From: Sycon ciliatum
Lineage: Eukaryota > Porifera > Calcarea > Leucosolenida > Sycettidae
Reading direction: 5' to 3'
Length of the DNA: 64,000 nucleotides
NCBI RefSeq assembly: GCF_964019385.1
Contig: NC_088645.1
Location: 26,747,189 to 26,811,188, forward strand
Of the stretch, positions 679 through 55,142 are shown one piece after another. Position 1 is the stretch's first letter. Each line of letters begins with the position of its first letter. A program made the position numbers and the translations under genes. The notes under the pieces were generated by a model. The model was not told the DNA's origin. It saw only the letters and a list, made by a program, of their open reading frames with translations, and did not search any database.

Positions 679-1903
679 GGCCCGATATCTGAGACTTTCG
701 ACCTTCGGGGCTACGCGTTTTTTTTGAGAAAACACTAAAAACAAATTTGTTCGCAAAAAAATCGATTCCGTCAAAGCAAAGTGCAGAGACGACAATGGCG
801 GAACAAAATTGAAGGCGATTCTTGTGTCAGTTGGTTATTGGGCTCACGGAGCACAGCAGCCGCGATCCCATGGACGGTGATGCATCGTTCTTTGTGGATA
901 TCCTGTCAAGCGGCAACAGCGCTTCTAGTTCTGAGAGCGCATGTCAGGCGAATCGATCGCAAGTGACACGCGGTACTTACCTGTCGGGGGCGACGATGAT
1001 GAGGACTTGGCCTGGATGAGTATGATCAAGGCTAACCACAGTCTGCCTCAGCGATAGCTGCTACAGCTCCAGGCAAGGACAACCAGGTGGATTCCTGAGG
1101 GTACGCCGCTTGCAAGGTCGCTGGGCGCCCTTGCGCGAGTGGCAGAACTGTTTCCTGAGTGTCACGCCAGACCTGCTAAAACAGCACGAAATGATGCGAG
1201 TTTTCTTTGCGACGATGATCCTAAAATGTTTGGGATGGCAAGCTCGATACTCGAGCTAATAATGGCGAATCAGACCATCACGGAGCACATGAGGCTGGGC
1301 AATCTCGAGTAACATTCTGTTACTTTTGAGTTGGTGGTGTGAAACGCTTGTCAGGCTGGTTTACTGATGTTTGGAAATGGTCAGTCTCCACAAAGTGCAA
1401 CAAGGCGAATCTGGACGCATTTGCTCTGTTTGACTCCTTCACAATAAGTATGTGAATGCTGTCACATGTATCATGGTGTTCCATCAAAATCTGTTGCAGA
1501 CTATCCTGTCAAGCATGTCCATCACCAGGAGAACAGATAAATCACCTCTCCTTCTAATGCTGCTATTGCTGCTGTTGCAACTACACAACCTCAATAAAGT
1601 CACGGAATGCTGGAAATGAAGTACCTGAACAGTCAAAACACTTTACTATATTAGTTGGCTAGTGATATCACATAGAAACAATTTTTGGTGGCTCCAAACA
1701 CACTGATCTTTCAAAATTGTAAAAAAAAGAACAATTCATTAACATGACTCCTGACTGTAAAATGCACTTCTACATGGTCAATATTGGTCTGATGGCCGTG
1801 AAACGAAGTCACAATACTCTACCAAGGCAAGACATCAATTTGCAATAAAAAAATCAATTTCACCAAAACAGCCCCGAAGGTCGATTTTCTCAGATATTGG
1901 GCC
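679..1903. mobile_element. 1.2-kb TIR DNA transposon, ATTT target duplication, superfamily unknown
   Basis: The ends are inverted repeats of about 34 bp: 679-712 begins GGCCCGATATCTGAG and 1870-1903 reads back as GGCCCAATATCTGAG, both continuing into TCGACCTTCGGGGCT. ATTT stands directly outside both ends (675-678 and 1904-1907), which looks like a 4-bp target duplication. The interior holds a decayed reading frame (983-1312) but no recognised transposase, so it is probably non-autonomous. The TIR does not match a superfamily that I can name. Confidence 0.75.
983..1312 (+). pseudogene. Decayed reading frame inside the 1.2-kb TIR element
   Basis: One frame stays open across 109 codons except for a single TAG at 1055-1057. 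It contains an acidic stretch (DDDEDLAWMSM), then ELFPECHARPAKTARND and MASSILELIMANQTITEHM. The composition looks like real coding sequence and its position inside the transposon suggests part of a transposon protein. I do not recognise the family. Another open stretch just upstream (around 870-960, FFVDILSSGNSASSS) may be an earlier exon or a frameshifted part. Confidence 0.4.
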
Positions 1904-2134
1904 ATTTGTAGTTCTATTGTTGACATCTTTTGTCTTTTCTTTGGGTTAAAAGGTTAACTTCATCCTCGTTTTCCTATTGCCTTGTATTGGAATTTGCCCA
2001 TAAAAGTGGCTACGGTGTGATAATGCATTTCTATAAATTATTTCGTGTTTTAAAGTTATTATCAGAAAATTGCTCTTACAATACCTTGCGTTTCATATTC
2101 ATAATATTGTTGCCCGTAAAAGCGGCTTGGTCAC

Positions 2135-2195
<61 letters not shown>
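2135..2195. repeat. (GAT)n microsatellite
   Basis: About 20 units of the same trinucleotide as at 285-350. It produces poly-Asp, poly-Ser and poly-Ile frames, none of which is a gene. Confidence 0.97.
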
Positions 2196-2196
<1 letters not shown>

Positions 2197-2575
2197 GTAG
2201 TGTTGGAGACAATTTCTTTCATTTTCGACCAATGAAAAGTTTTCAAAAAGATCAGTAAAACTGTGAGCATAACCCGAGTAAAGTTCATGTCCGCTGATTT
2301 CAGTGTTTTGCGATCTGAAAATGAGGATTCCGTGCATTGCCTTATGCACTGTGTGAGGCTGGCAATAAATTCAATTACAACCTGCAGAGATCATCAGATT
2401 CATATAGACCCTCGGACCCAGATGAACCTACCTGCAGGATGGTCAGAGACGGCCATGATAGAATCCTTGAAGAAAGAGAGGAGGCAACGAGGATGGTGGA
2501 AAAACCTTGAAGCGATCCAGACAACAGAAATTGTATGTACAAACGGTAACACACATGCCCACAGCCACATGTGCA
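2196..2575. other. Unassigned DNA
   Basis: Sequence between the GAT repeat and the CA repeat. A frame enters from here into the CA tract but shows no recognisable domain. Confidence 0.4.
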
Positions 2576-2795
2576 AACACACACACACACGCACACACAC
2601 ATACACACACACACATACATACACACACATACACACACACATACACACACATACATACGCACACACATACACACACACACACACACACACATACACACAC
2701 ACACACACATACACACACATACACACATACACACATAAACGCACCTGTGCAAACACACACACACACAAATGCATATGCACACATACACATAAATG

Positions 2796-2835
<40 letters not shown>

Positions 2836-2847
2836 TACAGTGTGGTG
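2576..2847. repeat. (CA)n / ACAT microsatellite
   Basis: Long compound tract of CA interrupted by ATAC units. The long His-Thr and Cys-Val open frames on both strands across it are products of the repeat. Confidence 0.97.
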
Positions 2848-3174
2848 CCCACATGCACACATAAAAAAGATTTACACCCAAAACAGCGTAGCGTTATACG
2901 CCACGTGCTCATATAAGCACCCCCAGTATGTGACACTGTGTAACCAGACTCACAACAGCTCGTCTCATCTCTTGCATGCCCCATTTTGACGCGACCAATT
3001 ACGTTTAACTTCCAAATATAAACCATCTTATTGTACACATAACTCATAATGAACTTAGAAAGGAGAGCCTGGAGAGCAGTATAAAAGTGGTGCTTTTCAG
3101 GCACAATCTTCCTCAGCCTACTCAAGCTCAACTGATGAGGGGTGAATTCCCCGAAACACTGTGTATTGAGCAGG

Positions 3175-3285
3175 GAGTGGTGCTTTCTTTCAGGTTTGCC
3201 GAGCGGAAGGTGCGACGTGCTCCTCGTGTGCTCCGGATGACAGTCGTGAGTCAGTCAAGTGTCAAGTTCGGCAAGAAGCGTGTGC
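3175..3285 (+). repeat. Dispersed repeat, partner at 48010-48130 (inverted)
   Basis: This stretch (GGTTTGCCGAG, then CGTGTGCTC, then GACAGTCGTGAGTCAGTCAA) matches the reverse complement of 48010-48130 with scattered mismatches. The flanks differ, so it is an interspersed repeat of unknown type. The open frame running through it shows no known domain. Confidence 0.6.
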
Positions 3286-3327
3286 TCCTCGTTGGAGCAA
3301 CCAACTTCGTAACTCATAATGTGCACG

Positions 3328-3582
3328 TTATTCCCGTAGCTATGCAGAAGACATTACTTCAGTAACGTCTGGCGCTAGCCAGGGTCCACACAGCTTTAAT
3401 TTGGTATTTGTGTGTTTGTTTGTGTGTTTGTGTCACGCCTGGCGCTATCCCGTATCTGTCCCGTACCGGTTATGCCTTTTTTAAGGCATAACCTGGGATT
3501 CGAACCCGCACTATCACCCTACATGCATTCCCCCATGCACTTCGCATTCATACTCATTCTTCCAAGTTGCTTCACGTTATGA
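3328..3582. mobile_element. Rearranged copy of the heterodimeric tRNA-like element
   Basis: It begins with the family's TTATTCCCGTAGCTATGCAG end and the 22-nt palindrome around AGACATTACTTCAGTAACG, follows the plus orientation to the GTCCCGTACC motif, then switches at about 3465 into a minus-oriented tRNA-like half (GGGATTCGAACCC is the inverted B box). The flanking reverse transcriptase frame starts directly after it, so this copy truncates that retroelement. Confidence 0.75.
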
Positions 3583-3945
3583 TCAAATCGCTCCACCTCA
3601 GTACCTTCCTGCTACCAGCGCCACGAACGGGAGAAACGCCGCTGCTATGAGGAGCATGTTCGAGAGATCGAACATGCAACTTTTTCACCTCTCGTTCTCT
3701 CCTCAACAGGCGGCATGGGCAAGTCGGCAACAGCCTGCTATAAGCGGATTGCCGGGCTCCTGTCCGACAAGACGAAGGAGCCGTACAACCGAGTAATGGC
3801 GTGGATTCGCTGCCGACTTGGCTTTGCTCTGGTTCGCTCCAGCATGGTTTGTTTGCGTGGTGCTCGGCGACGCCCCTTGCGTGTCAGCGATGTGGTGGAT
3901 GCATCTGCTACCTTGGCCGTTGCCGAGGCCCGCTGCCCTGTATAA
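3583..3945 (+). pseudogene. C-terminal tail of a FADD/GGMG-type reverse transcriptase
   Basis: The frame is open from the junction with the preceding repeat to the TAA at 3943. It reads CYQRHEREKRRCYEEHV, then REIEHATFSPLVLSSTGGMG, then YKRIAGLLSDKTKEPYNRVM, then AWIRCRLGFALVRSSMVCLR. This order (SFTPLV-GGMG-YKRLA-MAWIRC-LLRSAIMCIRG) is the typical end of the same uncharacterised RT family seen at 1-285 (family knowledge). The true coding region extends upstream of the first ATG at 3715. The N-terminal part, with the polymerase, is missing, so it cannot work alone. Confidence 0.8.
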
Positions 3946-4207
3946 CTGACTGCAAGTGGTTCCTAAACCACTTCCTATTCCTAATTGTTGCTTCTTCGTT
4001 CCCCTCTAGTTTTCTTTTTACGGTATTATAATTTTACGGAGAAGGGTGGAGAGCCCGAAAGTGTGCAGTTATATTTTTATTGTTTGCCATGGCGACCCCT
4101 CTAAGTTCAAATAACTGGCAGGGCAGGGTTGCGCCCTTTTCTTTCTTCTCGGATTTGTATGATGTCAATAAACTGTTGAAATATAAAAAAATATAAAATT
4201 AAAAAAA
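3946..4207 (+). mobile_element. 3' UTR and poly-A tail of the RT retroelement
   Basis: After the stop codon comes about 230 bp of non-coding DNA with an AATAAA signal (CAATAAAC near 4169), then an A-rich tail (AAAAAAATATAAAATTAAAAA) from about 4184. This is what a retroposed mRNA 3' end looks like and marks the right boundary of the element. Confidence 0.65.
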
Positions 4208-4265
4208 TGTACAGTGCAGTGCGTACTAGTACACAGCATGCCAGGACTGTACAGTGCAGTGCGTA
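4208..4265. repeat. Two direct repeats of an 18-bp motif
   Basis: TGTACAGTGCAGTGCGTA occurs at 4208-4225 and 4248-4265, separated by TAGTACACAGCATGCCAGGA-like sequence. The same spacer and motif recur at 5519-5560, next to the second foldback, so it probably belongs to a common flanking repeat. Confidence 0.75.
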
Positions 4266-4268
4266 CGT

Positions 4269-4385
4269 AGAGGATATAACCCGAGTCAGAGGGTTATACC
4301 GGCTGAATATAAATCCCGACTGCGATAGCAGGAGGGATTTTTATGAGGGTACGGTATAACCCGACTACGAGGGTCATATCCTACT
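4269..4385. mobile_element. Foldback (palindromic) MITE-like element
   Basis: An imperfect palindrome of about 117 bp: AGAGGATATAACCCGAGTCA on the left pairs with GACTACGAGGGTCATATCCT on the right, with nested GGGTTATACC and AAATCCC repeats in the arms. It could form a long hairpin. No target duplication is clear. Confidence 0.65.
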
Positions 4386-5165
4386 TATGCCAGGTACCCC
4401 TACGCATTTCCAGAACAACGAACCTATTTGGAGATCTCCTACATCATGCAGTACATGAACATCTTCTGATGGTTATCAGTTGTCAATTGAAAGAATGGTC
4501 GAGCAAGATCAGAAGGAGATTCCTCAGTGGATGTTTGGCATCAGATTTCCTTTCAGTTCCAGTGCATATTGTAGCATATTGTCTTGCGAGCGATGCGGAA
4601 GTCAACTGAATTGCTGGGGTGCTGGAGTTGTCGTTGAATCAAACTACCGTCACTAGTTAGACTACAGTACAGTTTGGACTCTTTGGGAGTAAGTGTTACT
4701 ATTGTCATGATTTTGGTACAGTGCTGATTTTCACATGCGGCATCTTATAATCAGGTTTGCTTACTTGCAAGTAGATGCATTTGCATACACTGTTTTGTAT
4801 CACTGTATCACATTTCAATCCATCCTAGCGTTTTTCCAATCGGTTTAGGTGGATTTGAAGTACACTCTGTATCATAAACTTAGTTACGAAGGAGACAGTC
4901 TGTTGATGATCTTCAACTATTTGAATTACAATGTACATTGCTGACCAATTCGGGATACTTCGTGGTTATTTGACGTTCTTTATTCTCAGTTTCAGTATAA
5001 TATATGTAGAATACTCGGTAGACGAATTCCAGGTCATTCTTCTTTTCCATTGTGCACTGTTCCTCGTCGGTAATGCCGTTCTGTGTGGAGTGTACACGTG
5101 CATGTGGTGTATGTTGTGAATGGTCAGTGCGCTGAGGAAAACCATCAGAAAAAAACCCACTGAGG
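4386..5165. other. Unassigned DNA
   Basis: No recognised gene. A frame at 4931-5119 encodes a hydrophobic peptide of about 60 residues but without any family signature or codon support. Confidence 0.4.
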
Positions 5166-5247
5166 AGCTTTCTTTCTCTAAAAAGGAGTGTATATAGCTT
5201 TCTTTCTCTCTAAAGCTATATTCACTCCTTTTTAGGGAAAGAAAGCT
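5166..5247. repeat. Inverted repeat with CCCTAAAAAGGAGT-type arms
   Basis: AGCTTTCTTTCTCTAAAAAG at 5166 pairs with CTTTTTAGGGAAAGAAAGCT ending at 5247. Part of the right arm is repeated again to 5263. The TAAAAAGGAGT core is the same as in the inverted-repeat element at 12651-12760. Confidence 0.7.
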
Positions 5248-5289
5248 ATATTCACTCCTTTTTGCTCTTGAGCTTGCGCATGGAGAGGT

Positions 5290-5424
5290 ATAAATATATT
5301 ATAACAAGGGACCTCGTGTATATCGAGAAATATCGACCAGTTATAAAAACCTCGGCTTCGCCTCGGTTTTTATGCTGGTCTATATTTCTCGATATACACT
5401 CGGTCCCTTGTTATAATATATACA
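5290..5424. mobile_element. Foldback element, 60-bp arms
   Basis: Left arm 5290-5351 and right arm 5365-5424 are near-perfect inverted copies (TATTATAACAAGGGACC pairs with GGTCCCTTGTTATAATA) around a 13-nt centre CTCGGCTTCGCCTCG. Most mismatches are single bases. It is a cruciform or hairpin-forming foldback MITE; the motif TAGTACACAGCATGCCAGGA follows at 5521 as it does near 4226. Confidence 0.8.
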
Positions 5425-5865
5425 CAAATCCCGCGTGGGATTTATACTGGCCAATATACCCATGGCTAGACGAGCCCTGATTGGCTGAAAACAGGCCCTC
5501 CGCACCGTACCATGGTATAATAGTACACAGCATGCCAGGAATGTACAGTGCAGCCGTGTTTGTACATCATGCATGGCTGGCCGCCCAATGCGCGCATATG
5601 CATGCATAGAATTTAAAAATAAAAATCGTCCGTGCGCCGCCAAAAATCGGTGCGCGCACTTGACAATCAAAGACAATGTCCAATGTAAATGGCACATGAA
5701 CCTACTATTTACTATTACAATAGTACCGTATAATCTCCATTATAAGCCCAGCACTTATATTTTTTCAACCAGTCCGGACCCTGGGCTTATATTGGAGACT
5801 GGGCGTCTACTAGAGACTGGGCTTAATATTTTCCAACCACCTGCTACATGAACATTGCCTATTAT

Positions 5866-6778
5866 TTTTCATTCCAGTAGCTATGCAGAAGACGTTACTT
5901 TAGTAACGTCTGGTGCTAGCCAGGGTCCACACAGCTTTAATTCCCTTAGCTATGCAGAAGACGTTACTTCAGTAACGTCTGGCGCTAACCATGGTCCACA
6001 CAGCTTTAATTTGGTGTTTGCTTGTTTGTGTGTTTGTGTCACGCCTGGCACTATGCCGTATCTGTCCAGTACCATACCGTACCATCAAACACAGCTGGCC
6101 ACATACAGCTGGCCGCAATATTCAAATAGGGCTTTCAAACGCAAGATCATAACTTGAAGCAACTTGGACAAATGAGTATGAATGCGAAGTGTATGGCGGA
6201 ATGCATGTAGGGCGATAGTGCGAGTTCGAATCCCGGGTAATGCCTTAAAAAAATAGGAGAATTTAAAAAATTATAACATCCCTTTTCTTTTTTTGCCGTC
6301 ATCAAGGCGGTAGACGGTCTGTATTACCCTCGACCATAACTGTCCCGTACCTGTCCCGTACCTGTCCCGTACCTGTCCCGTACCTGTCCCGTACCTGTCC
6401 CGTACCTGTCCCGTACCTGCCCCGTACCTGTCCCGTACCTGTCCCGTACCTGCCCCGTACCTGTCCCGTACCTGTCCCGTACCTGTCCCGTACCTATCAT
6501 GCACCGTACCGTTAAATCAAAGACGGCTGGTCACAATGCATATTCAAATAGGGCTTTCAAATACAAGATCATAACGTGAAGCAACTTGGAAGAATTAGTA
6601 TGTATGCGAAGTGTATCGGGGGGTGCATGCAGGGCGATAGTGCGGGTTCGAATCCCAGGTTATGTCTAAAAACAAAAAGTAGAAACTTATAAGAATTTAT
6701 AACATCCCTATGCTTTTTTGTCTAGGTCATCAAGGCAAAAAACATAGCGTAGGGCCCTGAGCTTCCAAGCTCTCTCGT
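5866..6778 (+). mobile_element. Heterodimeric tRNA-like (SINE-like) element, full-length copy
   Basis: Order: the AGACGTTACTTCAGTAACGT palindrome (duplicated here at 5885 and 5953), the TTTGGTGTTTG..CGCCTGGC block, monomer 1 with B box GAGTTCGAATCCC at about 6222, a GTCCCGTACC minisatellite, monomer 2 with B box GCGGGTTCGAATCCC at about 6643, and the terminal GAGCTTCCAAGCTCTCTCGT. The two monomers are related but distinct in sequence. The B box GGTTCGAATCC is the RNA polymerase III internal promoter motif of tRNAs; an A-box-like TGCGAAGTGTA stands about 40 nt upstream in each monomer. No protein is encoded, so it must use another element's machinery. SINE is the best label, but the two terminal hairpins are unusual. 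Confidence 0.75.
6340..6494. repeat. 11-bp minisatellite, 14 units of CTGTCCCGTAC
   Basis: Fourteen near-identical 11-bp units, with CTGCCCC variants. It is an expansion of a motif present once to four times in the other copies of the surrounding element. Because 11 is not a multiple of 3 every frame is alike; the Gly-Thr-Arg repeat frame on the minus strand is not a gene. Confidence 0.95.
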
Positions 6779-8399
6779 TTGGTATTTGATTGTTTGTGTG
6801 TTTGTGTCACGCCTGGCGCTATTCCGTATATGTCCCATACCCTACCGTACCATCAAACACAGCTGGCCACATACAGCTGGCCGCAATATTCAAATAAGGC
6901 TGTCAAACGCAAGATCATAACGTGAAGCAACTTGGAAGAATGAGTGTGAATGCGAAGTGCGTGGGATAATGCATGTACTTTATCAGCGCCATCGAAATTG
7001 TCGCAGTTTGACTAGTGACTTGTCACTTGTTACTGACAACTCCAGAAGCTAAACCATACAAATATTAGTACATAGTATGTTAGTCTGAAGGCTAGAGTAA
7101 CGTTCCTGGGCAGTTAGACTGAGAGTTTTCACACAGAGATGAAGGCCTCGTCGTCGATGATGTCAATGGATGCAAAAAAATCGTTCCGAAATATTACAAG
7201 GAAGGTTGCAAGTTAGTTGGTCGCGCCTCATCTCAAACGCTTTGACTTTCTCCACAGGACAAGAGCTGGTATGCTTGTCGTCTGCTAGCTCTAGATGATT
7301 TCTACTTCACCACCAACGAAGTAAGAATACACGATCGTTGCGAGGTCGGTTGATTACTCTCGGCGGAATCACCTCGATCTTGAAATGAACTTTTTTTAGC
7401 TGTGGCATGCCCATTTATTTTAGCTGTGTGGTCACAGCTCATGCAGGTAAGTGTACTATCAAGTCCAGCGCACAATATTTTCCATCATCACTGGTATGGC
7501 ACCTGCGCGTGCATCACTTGCACTACACGTAAAGTCTACACGGCTCTTGGAGGTACAATCATGTACTGAGTGTCTTGAGCCAGAGCGACAAATTATATCG
7601 CTCTTGCATGCATTTAGTTTGCTGACCCCTCGACGTTTCTCCAAGCGCTGCTGCTTATTCCACGAAGTCATTCTCACCCCAGCTAAGGTAAAACAGTGAT
7701 GAAACTTTGAGTGATTGGCTATAAACACGAGAAATGTGCTGGCTGCAACGCCTGACTGATCTCAGCGAGTCGAAAGTACCATCGCAGCGACATCAGTGAA
7801 GAAATTGCGTCTAGTTCAAAAATTTCAGCTTCCAATAACAGAAATTAAAACTTTGCCGTCGCCCTATACTGATGACCGTGGCCTATGTCCGATTCCTTAC
7901 CTGTGGTACGAGTGGTCGTGAGTAAATACCCCGTTATATATCAAAAGTCAAACTGCGACAATTTCGATGACGCGGAGGAAGTAGGGCGATAGTGCGGGTT
8001 CGAATCCCAGGATATGCCTTATAACGAAATAGGAGAATTGAAAAATATATAACATCCCTATGTTTTTTTGCCGTCATCAAGGCAGTAGACGGTGTCGTAT
8101 TACCCTCGACCGTACCTGTCCCGTACCGAACCATCAAAGACGGCTGGCCACAATGCATATTCAAATAGGGCTTTCAAATGCAAGATCATAACGTGAAGCA
8201 ACTTGGAAGAATTAGTATGTATGCGAAGTGTATCGGGGGAGGCATGCAGGGTGCGCGATAGTGCGGGTTTGAATCCCAGGTTATGTCTTAAAAAAAAGGA
8301 GAAATTTATAAGAATTTATAACATCCCTATGCTTTTTTTGTCTAGGTCATCAAGGCAAAAAAGCATAGCGTAGGGCCCTAAGCTTCCAAGCTCTCTCGT
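6779..8399 (+). mobile_element. Second heterodimeric tRNA-like element, interrupted by a transposon
   Basis: It starts head-to-tail against the previous copy at TTGGTATTTGATTG and lacks the terminal palindrome. Monomer 1 runs to GCATGTA at 6977, stops, and resumes at 7982 with TAGGGCGATAGTGCGGG, exactly the continuation seen in uninterrupted copies. Monomer 2 has its B box at about 8263 and the element ends at CTCTCTCGT 8399. Confidence 0.8.
6978..7981. mobile_element. TA-flanked TIR transposon (mariner/Stowaway-like ends), copy 1, 1004 bp
   Basis: Terminal inverted repeats of about 36 bp (CTTCCTCCGCGTCATCGAAA consensus, with three changes on the left) flank the element. TA is duplicated outside both ends (6976-6977, 7982-7983), and joining the flanks restores the sequence of intact copies of the host repeat, so the insertion site is certain. 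TA duplication is typical of Tc1/mariner elements. The interior has exon-like segments but no recognised transposase; it is related to 13103 and 14344. Confidence 0.85.
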
Positions 8400-25276: not shown

Positions 25277-26572
25277 TCACCGTAGATACTGCACGAGTTC
25301 AGGTGGTTGCAGTTCAAAGTACGCTGACGTCTTGTTCCCTCGGCGAATGATAGTTCTGCAATTGCAAAGCAAAGCAGCAACTTTGTAGTAAACAGCGATG
25401 GGCTGAAGTCCAAGCTTCAGCTGCTTGTAATTGTTGATCAGCGCCCAGTAGGTGCTCACTTCACCAAATGCCCACTCCACCGTTTGACGCGCGGAATTCA
25501 TGGCCGTGTTGAACTCACGTTGTTGTGGAGTTACATTCCCACCAAGATACCCCTTCTGGATGAATTGGCTGAAAGGATACGCTGGATCACCGTACAGTGC
25601 ATAGCACCGGCCATCGGGAAGGCGCACGTTGTTCTGAAGCTCGACCAGGAGATGGCTTTCCGCTAAGACTCCTGCATCGTGACGGCGGCCTTCTACAGGG
25701 CCAAATAGATGGGTGATTAGTCCATCCGGTGTGGTCACTGCTTGAAATTTTAATGCATGGACGCGCTTGTGCCCGTTGTAAAAGATGCGCTGATTATGCC
25801 CGGGACGGCTCATGGGGCGGACTGTACCGTCAATGAATCCCCAGATGAGCATATCTACACCAGTTTTCCGTTGGATAGCGTCGCTGTAGGACCGCAATGT
25901 AGCTGGGGTGAGGCATCCTTGGTCAAAAGTGTTTTCGATCACGTGACTCCACCGGTTCCATATCCATGGCAGTGTCGTATTAAATATCCGACTTATATCT
26001 TCTTCGTACCGCCCAAACTCCTCAGCCAGATCTACCAATCGGCAAGGAAATGCCAATCGCCTCAACACAACCAGTAGACCATCCATCCCTGTCCACGTGA
26101 TCCTATTGACGCCTTTCATAGTCTGAGGCATACGCAAAGCATCGCACAATTCGTGTAACTCCGCCTTGACAAATCGAAATCGGAGCATGCAAGCGTCATC
26201 TGGCAGAGATCGTATGCAAAGACGTGGAGGGAGTCTCCTCCTTTCGATGTTCAACTGGCAATCATCCTCCAACGCAAGGATAAGCAAAAGCAGCTTATCC
26301 TTACCCAGTAGACCTTTGTCGTAGGCAAAGAGCAAAACTGCCAACGTCTGATCAAACTCTTCAGCCATGCCCAACTCGTGCAGATAACGCTGTTTGCAAA
26401 GCTCATACACTAAAAAGCAGGGAGTAGTCGATTGCGATATGTTGTAGTCGAAGTAAGTTTGACTACAACAAAAAAATACGTCCTCCCCTTCGACTCGTAA
26501 GTTCGTCGGAGTGTTTGGAGATGAAGCTTTCAAGCGCTTCAACTCCTTCATATCATGAGAACACGGGGTCAT
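25277..26572 (-). CDS. PIF/Harbinger DDE transposase, 431 aa, apparently intact
   Basis: An uninterrupted frame from ATG 26572 to TAG 25277. The N-terminal 150 residues are helical and include the LRFRFVKAELHELCDALRMP block; a helix-turn-helix-like region follows (LVDLAEEFGRYEEDISRIFN). The DDE_Tnp_4 core is complete: first Asp at about 248 (IWGFIDGTVRPMSRPG), then GRRHDAGVLAES at about 296-307, second Asp at about 329 (LYGDPAYPFSQF) and Glu at about 366 (RQTVEWAFGEV). These are the three catalytic metal-binding acidic residues. The length of about 430 aa fits the family. It is convergent with the Myb-like gene, inside matched TIRs, and may be active. A domesticated HARBI1-like gene is less likely because of the surrounding TIRs. 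Confidence 0.92.
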   Translation of the reverse strand: MTPCSHDMKELKRLKASSPNTPTNLRVEGEDVFFCCSQTYFDYNISQSTTPCFLVYELCKQRYLHELGMAEEFDQTLAVLLFAYDKGLLGKDKLLLLILALEDDCQLNIERRRLPPRLCIRSLPDDACMLRFRFVKAELHELCDALRMPQTMKGVNRITWTGMDGLLVVLRRLAFPCRLVDLAEEFGRYEEDISRIFNTTLPWIWNRWSHVIENTFDQGCLTPATLRSYSDAIQRKTGVDMLIWGFIDGTVRPMSRPGHNQRIFYNGHKRVHALKFQAVTTPDGLITHLFGPVEGRRHDAGVLAESHLLVELQNNVRLPDGRCYALYGDPAYPFSQFIQKGYLGGNVTPQQREFNTAMNSARQTVEWAFGEVSTYWALINNYKQLKLGLQPIAVYYKVAALLCNCRTIIRRGNKTSAYFELQPPELVQYLR

Positions 26573-26727
26573 GGGGTCATGTACTCTTGGTACGCGAGCA
26601 AACCAGACACGAAAAAGTTCACACGTAACGTTGTGCGCAACCTCACAGTTTACGAATATTCGTTAACTACTTTCGGTAAAAAATTTCGTTACGACGCTAC
26701 GAATTTTCGTTGTGCGCAACCTCTCTA

Positions 26728-34213: not shown

Positions 34214-35276
34214 TAGAGAGGTTTTGCATTCCGAATTTCGGAATGATTTTCGACTGTGCTTTTCCGAAAAAAGCGCGTTCCGAAAAACGGTATTTTCAGT
34301 GTTTTGCATTCCGAAAATCTGATTCGACTTCGTTTCCAAGGGTTGCCATGCAAAACAAAATGGAGAGCGTCGAACGGGTTGAGCAGGATCAAATCCATGT
34401 GCGCAGGTCAAACTGAATTATTTGGGTGCGGTTCGAAGACGAGGACGTACTGATGGTGGACCAAGTGATCCAACAGCTGAAGACGAGGTTGGCGAACTAC
34501 TGTCTTGTACTGTCAGTAGGCTCCATGGCGAAGGAAGATAGAGTGTGATGGAGTGTGAGAAGATTAGTCAACATGGCGAGATCAGCGAGAGCAGCAAAAC
34601 CAGCAAAAATCAAAACTACATACAGTCTGTATCGGCTATAGAGTGACCGGATATAAGAATATATCGGCTACAGTGATATTGGTACGAAATATCAAAAGCA
34701 AAACGTATTTTATCCTGTACAAATATCACTATAACCAATATTATCGGATGTAATGATATATCGGATATTATGATGGCAACAAAGAATCAAAACATGCATA
34801 ACACACTACATTATTGTCGGCTATAGTGATAACTTTAAAATACATGTTGCAATAATAATATTAATATCAAAGGCCCTATTTTTTTACTTTCTTAACCGTT
34901 GCTTATTTTGATAGTGACACATGTACATAACAGATTTTTTTTATGGAAATGCGGGCACTGTCAACTATGCATATGCAGCAGGGAGTCGTAAAATACCGGG
35001 AGGCGACACGAGATGCACAACCGCGTCGGATGATTGCCTCAGCTCGGGCACGAGTGCTGAGACCTCACGCGCTGCATGGCGAGGGACTTCCCATGAGGTC
35101 AAAGCGGCGCAGGTCATGCAAAAGGACGCGTTCGCTGTTTGGTCCAAAAAATTTGAAAACTCAATAAAATTATCCTGCACACAACGAATCCAGTGTCAGC
35201 AGTTCGTTTTGTTTTTCTAAGTAATAATACTTTGTGCCTTGGCCTTCGAAGTAAAGGATGATGGAGCTTGACAGAG

Positions 35277-36397
35277 ATGACTGCCAAAGTGATGATGATT
35301 GAGTCCACCGTGGAAGATGTAGATGACGCCACGTATTCACTTGGTGACCTGAGTTGTGGGGATGTTCAGCTGTGGGCTACAGGTGAGATTCTTTCGTTTG
35401 CATGTTTTTGTCTCTTCCTTGTGGACACGAATGTATAATCCGTAGCATACCTAAGTGCCCAAACTGACCCGATAAATTAGGTGGTCGACACCATCCTTTT
35501 CATCCTAGTCTGCCCACGATGCATTGTCTGTTCACTGTGACAGGATATTTATTGAAGTCCTGAAAATTTACGTGTGTACCTAGTATGTATCATCACCGTA
35601 GATGATGTAAACCTCCATCCTCAAACCATACTTTGTCTATGTGCAGATCGATGTAAGAGTGGTAGTGCCATCATGGTGTACAGGCCTATGGAAGGTGCAG
35701 TGATCCATGGAATTTGCAAACTGCTGACAATGAGACAGGCGAGTGTTACTGAGGCGACGGAGTCATTCCTGCATGTTATTATGACACGGTTACACAAGGC
35801 ATCAGGTACTGCAAATCTGCTACGCCAGGAAGTGTGCCAGCTGAAGGCATGCAAGGGTGCTGATATTTCGCAAGCATGGCAACAAATGCTGTCCGTCATC
35901 GCAACAGCTATTCCCGAAGTGAAAATCAATTGTGAAGGTCAGTGCGTTTTGCATGCATGTTGGAAAAAAATTGGCTTCTGACTAGGTATGCAAACGCTGG
36001 CTTTTGAATACTAGTACAGTCTCTGCAACCACCAGTCCTTATATGTTGTCTTTTTCTTTTCTCTTCTTCAGATTTGGAAGTTACATCTGCAGTGCTAGCG
36101 AATCTGATAAGCTACCTGCATGCCACGGCTGCCGCTGCTATCAGGAAAGCGTCAATAGCACCATCCAAAGCTGCTGAAGCCATCCCCGAACCGGTGATTG
36201 ACAATTTGTCTCACCTTGCTGAAAAGTACCATGGTGGTTGGTGCTTGGTGGCCGTGCGGCGTGAGCTGGAAGGAGCAAGGTGTCGCAACGATAACTTGCT
36301 GCAGCTTATACCTTTACTTGGCAAGGATGCCGTGACAAGCCTTCAGCCTTGTTTGGAGAATTCAGGTGGCCCGGCGTGGCTCCGAAGCTCTGTATAA
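35277..36397 (+). CDS. Spliced gene of unknown function inside the hAT element
   Basis: Three exons join in phase with consensus sites. Exon 1 (35277-35382) starts ATG after GACAGAG and ends CTACAG/GTGAGA; exon 2 (35647-35937) follows TATGTGCAG and ends GAAG/GTCAGT; exon 3 (36072-36365 or to the TAA at 36397) follows a CTCTTCTTCAG tract. Both introns are phase 1. The product is about 240 aa: a short acidic start (IESTVEDVDDATYSLGDLSC), then helical segments such as IHGICKLLTMRQASVTEATE, ADISQAWQQMLSVIATAIPE, VLANLISYLHATAAAAIRKA and HGGWCLVAVRRELEGARCRN. No signal peptide, membrane helix or known motif is seen. It ends either by reading into TAA (SGGPAWLRSSV) or by splicing on. It is not a hAT transposase; a captured host gene or unknown transposon protein are the alternatives. 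Confidence 0.6.
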
Positions 36398-36452
36398 GAC
36401 ACCATACGTCACAGATAAAAACAACTGAACCAGTGATATGTGAATTTTGCGC

Positions 36453-36513
<61 letters not shown>

Positions 36514-36720
36514 TCTGTGATAAGTGGTATAAGCAGTCCACAGGGTATTCACCTTGAGTGCATTCGCCGATAGTGTGACTTTCGTCGCACAGAACCTTCT
36601 TCAGTTGGTCAGGTGACTCGGCGTGGCTCGGAAGCTCTGTATAAGACAAAATACGACACAGATAAAAACAACTGAACCAGTGATATGTGAATTTTGCGCT
36701 TGTGTGTGCACGAGCATGCA

Positions 36721-36752
<32 letters not shown>

Positions 36753-36850
36753 CTTGTGTGTATGCTACTGTGATAAGCGGTACAAGCAGTATACAGGATA
36801 TTGACGGGTATTCACCTTGAGTGCATTCGCCGATAGTGTGACTTTCGTCG
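36366..36850. repeat. Tandem duplication of about 250 bp with GT microsatellites
   Basis: GGCGTGGCTC..GAAGCTCTGTATAAGAC, GATAAAAACAACTGAACCAG, a (GT)n run (36457-36511 and 36719-36746) and GGTATTCACCTTGAGTGCAT occur twice in the same order. The duplication lies at or just after exon 3 and copies its donor site (TCAG/GTG). Confidence 0.85.
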
Positions 36851-37940
36851 CAGAGAACTTTGCTCAGTCAGTGAGGCGACTCGGCCTTACGTTTCCTGAA
36901 GGCAATGTGTTCAGAACAGTTATGAACAGCTATGAACAGTTAAGAAATGACAAATATTGTTTGCAGTTCATGAGCCATATAGATGTGAAACACTTTGAAT
37001 GCAGAAGAATGAGGATAGTGGCATCAAATACTGCATGGATTCTGTTTGATATGCTACTTTTTTTCCCTTCCATGGAAAGGTGAGTACATCGTCGAACTTC
37101 ATCTCGAAACTTCACACAAACCTAGAATGGAACTTGGACAACATGAAGGGGCCATGGGCATGGTGTGTTTAGTGGAGAACTATTCCGAAAACAGGGTGTC
37201 ATTCGCATTGACTCAATTCAAATTTGAGTACATTTCGTGAATAACTTACCTTGACATTCCGTCGTCTCCAAAGCAGTGAACTTCCAAAAAAAAATTAAAA
37301 GCCACGGCTCAACCTAAGGTAATGCGTGGTACGTATCAGAAACAACCAGCTTTCGCACTGGAGATCCAGAATAGCCTCGAAGCATATAGCAAAAACAATT
37401 GAGAAAAAGAAGATGACGACGACGTTTCAATCACGCTTCAAATTTCGCGGGTCGAGTGCGGCAATCCTCGGATCGTGAAATGTGTGGCGTGTCGCCTCCC
37501 GGTATTTTACGACTCCCTGATATGCAGCATAGCATATGCTCATTTGTCAAAACGCCATGCTGGAAGTATTTCATGTGTCGATTGAAAAAAATCGATCGTA
37601 TCGCATATAGTGATGCATCGGTTATAATGATAAAATCACGGAAATCAAAAGGGTACGCTATAGCCGATACAGACTGTACGTGGAAATGTTTTCAAATAAT
37701 CGAGAGCAGCAGAAAGCAAAAATACAAACATGAAAAATACACTTTTTGTATTCAAATATGTACTCCCAAACATGAAAGAGCCGAAAATCCATTTTCGGAA
37801 AACCATGCACTTTCGCCACCACACTTCCGAAAGTTCGACTACTTTTTCGACTCCTGCCGCCACATTCCGAAAATAATTCCGAAATTCGGAATGCAAAACC
37901 TCTCTATTGACTCGTCTTGTATCAAACAAAAGAGTCACTA

Positions 37941-38218
37941 GAGAGGTTCTGCAAAACGAAAATGCGTACAAACTTTCCCTCTACATCAGGAGGTGCGAAA
38001 CTTCGCACGAACTTTCGCAACTTTGGAAGCGAAACTTGCAGGGAACACGAAATGAACTGTCGTAGGAAATTTCGTGAGATCGGGTCATAGCGTACGTGCA
38101 TTTGGCCCGCGCAAACTACGAAAATGTGCAGAACGCAAAGTTCGTGCAAAAATTCGTACACACTTTCGCAAGGACTGTCGCGAAACTTCGTTCGAATTTT
38201 CGTTTTGCAGAACCTCTC
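37941..38218. mobile_element. 278-bp MITE with GAGAGGTTCTGCAAAACGAA ends
   Basis: GAGAGGTTCTGCAAAACGAA at both inverted ends, TA outside (37939-37940, 38219-38220). The interior repeats CGAAACTT/TTTCGCA words. It is related in its ends to 34216 and to the autonomous Harbinger at 20465, which may have mobilised it. Confidence 0.8.
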
Positions 38219-50847: not shown

Positions 50848-51584
50848 ACGAGAGAGCTTGGAAGCTCAGGGCCCTACGCTATGCTTTTTTGCCTTGATGA
50901 CTTAGACAAAAAAAGCAAAGGGATGTTATAAATTCTTATAAATTTCTACTTTTTGTTTTTAGGCATAACCTGGGATTCGAACCCGCACTATCGCCCTGCA
51001 TGCATCCCCCGATTCACTTCGCATACATACTAATTCTTCCAAGTTGCTTCACGTTATGATCTTGTATTTGAAAGCCCGATTTGAATATGCATTGTGGCCA
51101 GCCGTCTTTGATTGTACGGTATGGTACGAGACAGTTACGGGACAGGTACGGGACAGGTACGCGACAGGTACGGTAGAGGGTAGTGCGACACCATCTACCG
51201 CCTTGATGACGGCAAAAAAAGAATAGAGATGTTATACATTTTTCAATTCTCCTATTTTTTCAGGCATTACCTGGGATTCGAACCCGCACTATCGCCCTAC
51301 ATGCATTCCCCAATACACTTCGCATTCTTACTCATTCTTCCAAGTTGCTTCACGTGATGATCTTGCGTTTGAAAGCCCTCTTTGAATAGTGCGGCCAGCT
51401 GTATGTGGCCAGCTGTGTTTGATGGTACGGTACGGTACGTGACAGATACGGGTAGCGCCAGGCGTGACACAAACACACAAACACACAAACACACAAACAC
51501 ACAAACACCAAATTAAAGCTGTGGGGACCCTGGCTAGCGCCAGATGTTACTGAAGTAACGTCTTCTGCATAGCTACGGGAATAA
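50848..51584 (-). mobile_element. Heterodimeric tRNA-like element inserted in LINE ORF1, 737 bp
   Basis: Complete minus-oriented copy: ACGAGAGAGCTTGGAAGCTC end, monomer 2 with inverted B box GGGATTCGAACCCGC at 50971, three to four GGGACAGGTAC units, monomer 1 with inverted B box at 51271, and the palindrome plus CTACGGGAATAA end at 51584. Coding sequence stands directly on both sides, so the borders are well defined and the element postdates the LINE. Confidence 0.85.
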
Positions 51585-52221
51585 AGCCAATTCTGATGTC
51601 GACAATGGCGGGAAATCCGCCATTGTTGTCGACCTTCGGCGCCAGGTTGACGGCCTCTCTGCCAAACTCAGTGACGTGGTAGATAATTTGCCAAATAAGG
51701 TTGACCTCGCTACATTGGTTCAGGAAACGACCTCTTCGCGCACTCAGCAAGTTCATGTCATGCGTGACGTCATGGCAGAGGAGGTGGCGAAGCGGGACCG
51801 CAGCAACAACGCGGTTCTCCGATGCCTAGTGGAGGCTGACGGAGAACAACTTCAGTCCATTGTACGGGGTCTCGTTCCAGGTCTCGATGCTGGTGATGTC
51901 CTCAGCGCAGAGCGCATTACACCAAAGAAGCGGGGTGAGGCAACTGGGAACGCCCGTGCTGGCCCAAGACTGGTAAAAGTCAAGCTCACAGAGAAGGGAA
52001 AGCGAGTGTTAATGAATGGAAACGTGCTGCTAAATATGGCGCACGTGATGTTTTTTGTCAACCACGATCTGACACCACAAGAGCAGGCCAGACGTCGTGA
52101 GTTGATTCCAAAGTGTAAGGCCCTCCGAGAGAAGAATTTCCCCTGCACCCTACCTCGGGACATGATCCTGAGTAAAGGCCGTCCTATGACCATGGATGAA
52201 ATTGCTCGCATTCTGCAATAG
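51585..52221 (+). CDS. LINE ORF1 protein, 3' part
   Basis: The frame is open from the inserted element (NSDVDNGGKSAIVVDLRRQV) to TAG at 52219. It shows a coiled-coil end, then RSNNAVLRCLVEADGEQLQS and a basic, RRM-like region GPRLVKVKLTEKGKRVLMNG, then FFVNHDLTPQEQARRRELIP and KCKALREKNF. The motif VNHDLTP-x-EQ-x-RR is common in LINE and related ORF1 nucleic-acid-binding proteins. The start codon lies upstream of the insertion. The product would bind LINE RNA in the RNP. Confidence 0.8.
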
Positions 52222-55142
52222 GATGCACGTGGGAACCCTTCTGTTGATGTCACATGTCCTAGTCCTATACAAGATTCCGAATTGAATATTGCTCATATCA
52301 ACATTTCTACATGTAATATACGAAACAAAGTGCATGATGTTCACAAAATATTACATGACCATAACATACACGTTCTATCCGTCAATGAGACATGGCTAGA
52401 TGACTCCATCACTGACGCAGCCATCCACATTCCACAGTACTCCGTCTTTCGCAATGACCGTAATCGGCATGGCGGTGGTGTTGCACTCTACATCCAAAGT
52501 CACTTGGACGCAAGATTAATTCAACTCCCATCGTCAATTACCACGGCATTAGTACGTCCTGAGGTGGTCTTCGCTGAAATCAATGTGCCACATGCAAAAC
52601 GAGACCAACTGATCACTGTTGGCACCGCTTACAGACCACCAGGACAGCCTGTCGCATTTTGGGAGACCTTCTCCTCCGCTGTAGACCAAGTCATAGCGCG
52701 GAATGACAAGACCATCATTCTAGGAGATTTTAAGGTTGATGTCCTAAAGAATACATCACCACAATACGGACACCTACGTCAACACTGCCAAGAATTTTGT
52801 CTGCGGAATGTCGTGACCCAACCGACCAGGCTGCCCTCGGGTACCTGTCTCGATATAGCGCTATGCTCTGACGACCTCAAAACTTCCGCATGTCATGCCA
52901 TAGCCCTGCACGGCATTACTGACCATCAGCTGGTCTTAGTAAAGACTGTCTTGCCTATGACTAAACCTACGAGAGTTGTGCGGCAGTTACGGAAGCCGCC
53001 ATTGTGGAAACTGCCTGCAGACGAATGCACCGATTCCATGCTTGATGCACTCACTGATTCCGCCTTCCGCAGAGTACCCCCAGATGGCTCACCAGACGCT
53101 AACACAACGGCAACTAGCTTCTCTATTCTATGCAAAAGAGTTCTGAACGAAAAGTCGCCTGTGAAACAAATTACCATCAGTGCTAGGGCTAAGCCTAAAC
53201 CACAGCCTTGGGTAAGCGATCAACTCCGAAGGTTGTTAGAAAGGCGCAAGCACCTCCACGCGAAGGTTTTGAAACATCCCGGAAATGAATCTGTGAAACA
53301 ACAGTACAGGGCAACAAGGAGGGAAGGCACACTGTTAAATAGAAAGCTGAGACGAGAGTATTACAACAGGGAGTTTCGAGATGCGAAGAATAAGCCAAGG
53401 CAACAGTGGGCGCTTCTAAACTCGCTCACAGGGCGCAACTTTGTCCGTGAACAACCAAAAGCTACGTTAGGCGATCTGAGTGCCATATTTGCGTCCATTG
53501 TCACTGATCCTAATCCTTGCCCACCCTTGAGCAACCTAATACCTGACATCTCGACAACAGCTGACGCAGACGCCCCTTCTTTTAAAGAATTTCGTGCCGT
53601 TTCAGCTCTGGAGATAAGCGACCTGTTGAAGCATTTGAACTGTGCCAAGGCAGCTGGATCGGATGACATTCCTCCTCTGCTCCTACGCCTCTGTGAGCCT
53701 GCCGCTGCAGGTCCCATAGCGCAGATCATTAACGAGTCCTTGAGTACTGGAATGGTGCCAGACGTGTACAAATTGGCTACAGTGTGTCCTGTCCACAAGT
53801 CAGGGGACAAATCTGAAGCGTCGAATTATCGCCCCGTTTCACTTTTGCCGATTGTTTCTAAGATCCTTGAGAAGGTAGTACATCGGCAAATGATTCGGTT
53901 CCTTCAAGATCACGCTGAGCTTCGTATTCTCCCAGACGAGCAGTTCGCCTACCGGAGAGGGCACTCCTGTGAGGATGCGTTAACTCTCGCAGTAAACCGC
54001 TGGATGATGAGTGTGGACAAGGGCGAGTATCGCGGGGTTATACTCGTGGACATGAGCAAGGCCTTCGATCGGGTACGCCATGAACTACTTCTTAACGAGC
54101 TTAAAGCTATTGGCATAAGCGGAGTAGCACTACAGTGGTTCTCCAGCTATCTCCAGGGTCGACGACAACAGGTGAAAATTGGAAATAACAGAGGAGACGA
54201 GACACATTGTACACGAGGCGTTCCGCAAGGGTCGGTGCTAGGGCCTCTGTTATTCTCTTTGTACGTGCGACATGCCCCTGGAGTACTTCGCCACGCAGAG
54301 TCCCAACAGTATGCTGACGATATCGCCTTTTATATACACTGTCAGTCTACTGGAGAACTTCAGCACAAGTTGACAAGTGAGTTGAACAGACTAAATACGT
54401 ACCTTGGAAGCATTGGTCTCATCTTGAATGCCCAGAAAACGAAGTTCATGGTGCTTCGGAAGAAGGCTCTGCCTCTTCCGCCGGATCTTACCATTGCATG
54501 CGGTGGTGTCGATATTCGACCTTCTGCCACAGCGCGTTATCTTGGCCTCATTATTGACCATCAAGTCAACCACGTATGTACATCTGTTTATAAGAAGATA
54601 GGAGCATTCCGCCGCTGCCGCCGTACAGTAGACCACACAACTAAGCGAATATTTTATTTATCCCTCATCCAATCCACTATTGAATACGCCAGCAACTCGT
54701 ATGCTCACTGTCTTACACCATCTTTATACTCTCGCCTTGTTACTTTAAGTCATATGAGCATGAAACAGGTTTTTGGTCTCCCTCGCCGTACCCCGACTGT
54801 CGTTGTTTTGCGGCACGCTAAGTGTTACTCTCTCGAATCTCGTCTCAACTTGAGGCTTTATATTTTTGTTTTCAGCTGTATTCATCAGCTTACAATTCCT
54901 CTTCATTCCTTAATGTTCACCCTCCAGTCGGCTGCTACTTGCACCAAGAGGCGCAATCATTCTCTTCACTTTCTTTGCCCGCTGCTACCATTAGATATGG
55001 CATGTTCTCTATTTCTTTCCTTGGCGCTGATAGGTGGAATTCTCTGCCTGTCTCGTGTCGTCAGGTTGAGCATCTATCCGTTTTTGTTTCGCTCTGTAAA
55101 GAGCACTTAGGGTTCCCTGTAACAAGACGGCAACGTCTGTAG
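52222..55142 (+). pseudogene. LINE ORF2: AP endonuclease plus reverse transcriptase, one frameshift near the end
   Basis: Counting from the TTG at 52282 as residue 1: endonuclease 1-225 with NETWLDD (catalytic Glu 36), GTAYRPPG, LGDF at 148-151 and TDHQLV (Asp 214, His 215); RT about 440-760 with SNYRPVSLLPIVSKILEKVV, ILVDMSKAFDRVRHELL, GVPQGSVLGPLLFS (646) and the catalytic YADD (677-680); then a C-terminal domain with YLGLIIDHQVN and IEYASNSYAHCL. The frame is the same as ORF1, separated by TAG only, and no ATG occurs near the endonuclease start. Around 54955-54985 the conserved ending (RYGMFSISFLGADRWNSLP) shifts to another frame, so the last about 55 residues are lost; GDFN is changed to GDFK. 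It nicks DNA and primes reverse transcription in intact relatives. Confidence 0.88.

Follow-up and report, generated by a model that had tools for sequence, protein, structure and literature searches.

A short transposon of Sycon ciliatum with a spliced gene, read as an internally deleted member of a two-gene P-superfamily family

A transposon of 2541 bp (34979..37519, + strand) encloses what looks like a spliced gene in a stretch of 64,000 nucleotides of the sponge Sycon ciliatum (the window: the whole stretch of DNA that was analysed). To which superfamily does such an element belong, and where does its gene come from? The original prediction, made from the sequence alone, saw a hAT element which had either captured a host gene or encoded an undescribed accessory protein. 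The termini and the duplication are as exact as it had stated: the 32-bp terminal inverted repeats (TIRs; 34979..35010 on the + strand and 37488..37519 on the - strand) are perfect inverted repeats of each other, and the 8-bp target site duplication (TSD) ATATGCAG can be read from the sequence on both flanks (34971..34978 and 37520..37527). The three-exon gene was also found, with 240 aa when the segments 35277-35382, 35647-35937 and 36072-36397 are joined and with two phase-1 GT-AG introns (35383..35646 and 35938..36071), although neither its start nor its 3' end is the original one.

The ancestral start is the ATG at 35258, which opens exon 1 (35258..35382, + strand). Read from this ATG, the window copy meets a stop after 14 codons, since an insertion of 7 bp at about 35292-35301 disrupts its frame. 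This insertion is private to the window copy (1 of 40 copies, see below), and it is because of it that the ATG at 35277 is in frame with the gene. Exon 1 is intact from the upstream ATG in 36 of the 40 copies, and the window is among the four exceptions. Exon 2 (35647..35937, + strand) is followed by the 5' part only of exon 3 (36072..36361, + strand), which includes the conserved motif YHxGWCxVAxR and is the start of an exon of about 400 codons in full-length elements. The reading frame then runs through a deletion junction into 36362..36397 (+ strand), where its tail and its stop are supplied by the 3' region of the element. Since the 3' end of the frame lies past the junction at 36362, about the last 11 residues of the product are foreign to the original gene. 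A repeated 3' region with TG microsatellites extends over 36362..36885 (+ strand). In Pfam the best match of the product, at 0.0069, stays below the cut-off, and no hAT family is listed for it at E<=10; the PDB gave no match.

Elsewhere in the window, tRNA and Rfam scans found nothing. An open frame of 461 aa at 25280-26662 (- strand) matches DDE_Tnp_4 (E 2.1e-23), and we take it to be a PIF/Harbinger-type transposase. A LINE-like element at 51559-55107 (+ strand) has an ORF of 220 aa without Pfam match, then an ORF of 962 aa with endonuclease and reverse transcriptase domains.

Other copies with the same TIRs, for which the original prediction had suggested searching, proved to be numerous. 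With the first 30 bases of the TIR and at most three mismatches, we counted 519 ends (249 and 270 on the two strands) in the genome of 538 Mb, and none in the reversed control; this is about 260 copies' worth. A DNA search with the element gave 186 candidates, the best 40 of which were scored, and 40 loci were extracted, including the window. Both TIRs were found at 35 of these loci, with an exact 8-bp TSD at 29 and a mismatch at the other six; the five remaining loci have one end missing, masked or outside the extracted stretch. The TSDs follow the pattern xTxxxxAx, T and A being present at these places in 27 and 26 of 33 TSDs. Of the 40 copies, 39 have retained the four splice dinucleotides, and the exception (L040) is unaligned there owing to an insert. 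L040 is a window-type copy of 3608 bp, with extra inserts in both its 5' and its 3' parts. Two other loci, L035 and L036, have an identical TSD, CTAGTAAC, and are perhaps one duplicated locus. No unfilled site for the insertion in the window was present among the extracted loci.

When the copies are aligned beyond the point at which the frame of the window departs, one group of copies reads on, and at the locus L029 the frame extends far beyond that. L029 is a full-length element of 6926 bp (C5:19783693-19790618) with identical 32-bp TIRs and an exact 8-bp TSD, ATTCGAAC. A second full-length copy, on C11, has 6939 bp, the same TIRs and an exact 8-bp TSD, GATTTCTC. The full-length members contain two convergent genes: a P-type transposase gene (see below) on the antisense strand and a spliced accessory gene on the sense strand. 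Both reading frames are uninterrupted in the C5 and in the C11 copy, with 1002 codons for the transposase and 535 for the spliced accessory ORF. At a third locus, C5:12818599, the transposase ORF is whole and the accessory part has a stop. The repeat which the C5 element has entered also exists as an unfilled copy, at 38078-38213 of the window (97.8% identity in 136 bp that span the joined site). The window element is made of positions 1-1390 (97.8% identity) and 5779-6926 (97.0%) of the full-length element. Aligned to the C5 copy, the window type has undergone a deletion of 4.39 kb (full-length positions 1391-5778), which took away the 3' part of the accessory gene and the transposase. We concluded, with a probability of about 0.92, that the window element belongs to a young P-superfamily family, of which it is a non-autonomous copy with an internal deletion, and that its gene is a truncated version of the accessory gene of its full-length relatives. 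The transposase of the full-length copies, acting on the shared TIRs, would move the short ones. The deletion has left the three 5' exons of the accessory gene still open in window-type copies.

The assignment to the P superfamily comes from domain tests run on the transposase of the full-length relative (P0001), the window copy having no transposase. P0001 matches the Pfam families PF21787 (TNP-like_RNaseH_N) at 5.8e-19 and, barely over the cut-off, PF21788 (TNP-like_GBD) at 2.9e-5 (24.9 bits versus 24.8); its match to PF21789 (TNP-like_RNaseH_C) is below the cut-off, at 0.01. Its best match in the PDB is the P transposase of Drosophila (6p5a, E=1.9e-6). The three catalytic residues reported for P transposase, D230, D303 and E531 (PMC7776569), are aligned with D619, D711 and E942 of P0001. 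No THAP family is found among the Pfam matches of P0001 at E<=10, though exons further upstream may have escaped us. Ahead of the catalytic core there are two C2H2 fingers. As a THAP domain is described in the P and THAP9 transposases (PMC7776569, PMC10983969), it must be noted that our call is based on the catalytic core and not on THAP.

Could the element nevertheless be a hAT transposon which captured a host gene, as in a Pack-hAT-like event? hAT elements have an 8-bp TSD, TIRs starting with CAG and a transposase with an hATC dimerisation domain, and xTxxxxAx is also a hAT target pattern. The 8-bp TSD with this pattern, a TIR which starts with CAGGG and the kept introns all speak for such an origin. 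However, the 8-bp TSD, which was seen at the 29 loci mentioned above, in both full-length copies and in a second family (see below), is common to P and hAT and hence does not discriminate between them, and the target pattern alone fails to separate them as well. What decides is the coding content: the transposase of the full-length relatives, whose TIRs are identical, is of the P superfamily, and no hAT family is listed for P0001 in Pfam at E<=10. Hence the element is a P element, and the hAT assignment of the original prediction was not borne out. A short copy can thus mimic a gene-capturing hAT element.

The capture of a host gene can also be judged from the distribution of the accessory gene. 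In the full-length element this gene is on the sense strand, with three exons and 535 codons to the first stop (about 460 codons if the donor at element position 2065 is used). A query made of its C-terminal 143 residues gave 33 matches in the genome at E<=10, which were merged to 25 loci. The transposase gave at least 47 matches at E<=1e-5 (the best 46 of 304 candidates were scored), merged to 34 loci. At 16 of these 34 loci an accessory match lies within 1.4 kb, 15 times tail-to-tail and once on the same strand, while about 0.004 such pairs are expected by chance according to our own arithmetic. In six of the 16 pairings the accessory match has an E between 0.004 and 0.02; for one of these six, a comparison of the entire protein brought confirmation at 2.6e-15. 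When we counted by hand the transposase loci spanning at least 2 kb, 13 of 15 had an accessory match beside them. The 18 loci with no accessory match within 6 kb are mostly short, 16 of them spanning less than 2 kb and two spanning more. Conversely, nine of the 25 accessory loci have no transposase within 6 kb.

Several families of elements can be told apart among these loci. The element of family 2 has 10,893 bp, perfect 32-bp TIRs which share 28 of their 32 bases with those of family 1 (our own count), and the TSD GTACATGC. Its transposase is 54% identical to that of family 1 over 785 codons (37% in the N-terminal stretch) and its accessory protein is 37-41% identical. In families 3 to 5, which were read for the accessory gene only, the transposases are 39-42% identical to P0001. 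The motif YHxGWCxVAxR and a block SKxKQ...LR recur in the accessory proteins of all five families. Phase-1 junctions could be read by eye, at matching places, in three of the four other families (2, 3 and 4): for intron 1 in families 3 and 4, and for intron 2 in families 2 and 4. A predicted accessory protein is therefore common, in this one species, to at least five families whose transposases are 39-54% identical. With matching phase-1 junctions in several P-element families, we take the accessory gene to be a long-standing component of these elements rather than a recent capture. No parental gene free of TIRs was seen among the best 92 of 374 candidates, not every one of which was checked for TIRs. 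The gene being tail-to-tail with the transposase in at least five families, hence old and borne by the element, we consider its capture from the host by a hAT element to be hardly credible. The other option of the original prediction fared better: an accessory gene does exist in families of elements, although the window has only its truncated 5' part.

Two further loci were noticed in these searches. At C1:54075424-54078627 (- strand), seven weak consecutive matches (E 0.03-0.08) to the accessory C-terminus follow one another, with no transposase match within 6 kb. At C14:16447316-16448929 (- strand), a frame of 889 aa encodes a distant P-type transposase (26% identity), with no accessory match within 6 kb. 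Viral contigs scanned with the accessory alignment and with the transposase gave no relatives.

We then asked how these genes evolve. When family 1 is compared with family 2, silent sites have reached saturation (pS 0.80-0.94) and replacement sites have not, pN being 0.31 for the transposase and 0.41-0.43 for the accessory gene. This shows purifying selection on both genes between the two full-length families compared. The short copies behave differently. Among 37 of them we counted 27 replacement and 13 silent variants (gapped codons being skipped and the full-length locus L029 being left out), which fits neutrality (P 0.19-0.45). In L044, a distant short copy, the dN/dS of exon 2 is 1.18 (7 silent and 27 replacement differences). 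From the selection between full-length families and the neutral-like variants of the short copies, it follows that the full gene is maintained and that the short copies probably drift. As the accessory gene accompanies transposases which are 39-54% identical, shares the intron positions that can be read and is constrained between the two full-length families compared, it is probably of importance to the element.

The window-type copies taken separately raise the question of a repressor. In the 24 of them that were compared, 10 replacement variants stand against 9 silent ones, a ratio slightly low for neutrality (P 0.03-0.09), and there may be a weak constraint on their truncated product. When the 25 window-type copies (L001-L024 and L040) are read from the ancestral start and without forcing the frame, 22 give an uninterrupted truncated protein of 243-244 aa, and the three exceptions are the window copy, L019 and L024; two of the 40 loci, L030 and L034, were left out of this frame-true splicing. 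According to a review (PMC7776569), small non-autonomous P elements frequently code for repressors, one of which is the KP protein (207 aa) of Drosophila, and the three-exon product of the short copies could likewise be kept for damping transposition. A truncated protein of the same length in so many copies and their low proportion of replacements are in favor of this. However, KP stems from the transposase, whereas the product of window-type copies stems from the accessory gene and is deprived of its SAP-like end (see below); the pooled variants fit neutrality; the frame of the ancestral start is lost in the window copy; and intact truncated frames are expected anyway because the copies are young. 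We therefore find a functional repressor quite improbable. In keeping with the deleted, drifting copy that we prefer to see in the window element, its truncated product probably does nothing.

What, then, does the complete accessory protein do? The SAP domain (PF02037) is over the Pfam cut-off in one of the five families, family 5 (2.3e-9); it is found below threshold at the C-terminal end of the accessory proteins of families 2 and 3 and is unlisted for families 1 and 4. The three profile matches of the accessory proteins to the PDB (E 0.07-0.6) are two structures named THO1 and one named "putative DNA-binding protein", all of which we take to be SAP domains. The C-terminus being SAP-like, we tentatively hold the accessory protein to be, most likely, a partner of the transposase that binds DNA or chromatin and would help the transposase to bind the ends of the element or its targets. 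A stronger version, which we entertain with some doubt, is that of a P lineage with an obligate, spliced, SAP-type DNA-binding partner kept together with its introns in families that diverged long ago, in which transposition would need two proteins and the partner would replace THAP in the recognition of the ends.

Two other roles must be weighed against the binding partner. The accessory protein might be an anti-silencing factor acting against control by host chromatin or small RNAs, as VANC does for VANDAL (PMC10398659); a conserved, separate second gene beside the transposase fits this precedent, but Pfam and PDB searches found no enzymatic or chromatin domain in the accessory protein beyond its SAP-like end, and we hold such a function to be rather doubtful. 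Alternatively, the accessory ORF might be the other half of a split transposase, supplying for instance the DNA binding, both halves being needed for catalysis. This agrees with a transposase ORF which has two C2H2 fingers and no detected THAP, and with the SAP-like end of the accessory protein in some families. It is nevertheless unlikely, as matches to RNase H and GTP-binding domains are already found in the transposase ORF, together with zinc fingers of its own, and as the accessory protein matches no transposase domain in Pfam. Retaining a binding partner as the preferred role, we note that the two apparently intact and nearly identical full-length copies make a direct test of two-protein transposition possible.

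Finally, the elements of Sycon can be compared with known systems. With hAT elements they share the 8-bp TSD and the TIRs starting with CAG, and they differ from them by a transposase without hAT domain. P elements, which are the reference system for eukaryotic transposition, are about 3 kb long, whereas the full-length elements of Sycon reach 6.9-10.9 kb. MuDR also carries a second gene which does not encode a transposase, MURB, and belongs to another superfamily. As described for Drosophila P and zebrafish Pdre2/THAP9, the P superfamily is otherwise alike in its RNase H/GTP-binding transposase with the three catalytic acids aligned, in its 8-bp TSD and short TIRs, and in its internally deleted copies, elements with one transposase gene and their deleted copies being reported in flies and zebrafish (PMC7776569, PMC10983969). 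These review accounts describe one alternatively spliced transposase gene (PMC7776569, PMC10983969), whereas Sycon has two convergent genes, and a transposase with C2H2 fingers and no detected THAP. No two-gene P element was described among the matches listed in the open-licence literature, a coverage which leaves out Repbase entries. Likened by gene content only and not by sequence, VANDAL with VANC (PMC10398659) and, like MuDR, the fungal DNA transposons with a TET/JBP gene (PMC12730594) are DNA transposons of other superfamilies with a second, non-transposase gene. A two-gene layout is known from Kolobok elements: KolobokP and Kolobok0 have a DDD/E transposase and a second protein, and the second gene of KolobokP lies downstream on the complementary strand, as in Sycon, but they form another superfamily, and what they encode beside the transposase is a His-Me finger nuclease or KolX, not a SAP-like protein (PMC9587614). 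P elements, their deleted copies and the two-gene layouts of Kolobok were thus known already; what we found no description of is a P-type lineage with a conserved partner gene.
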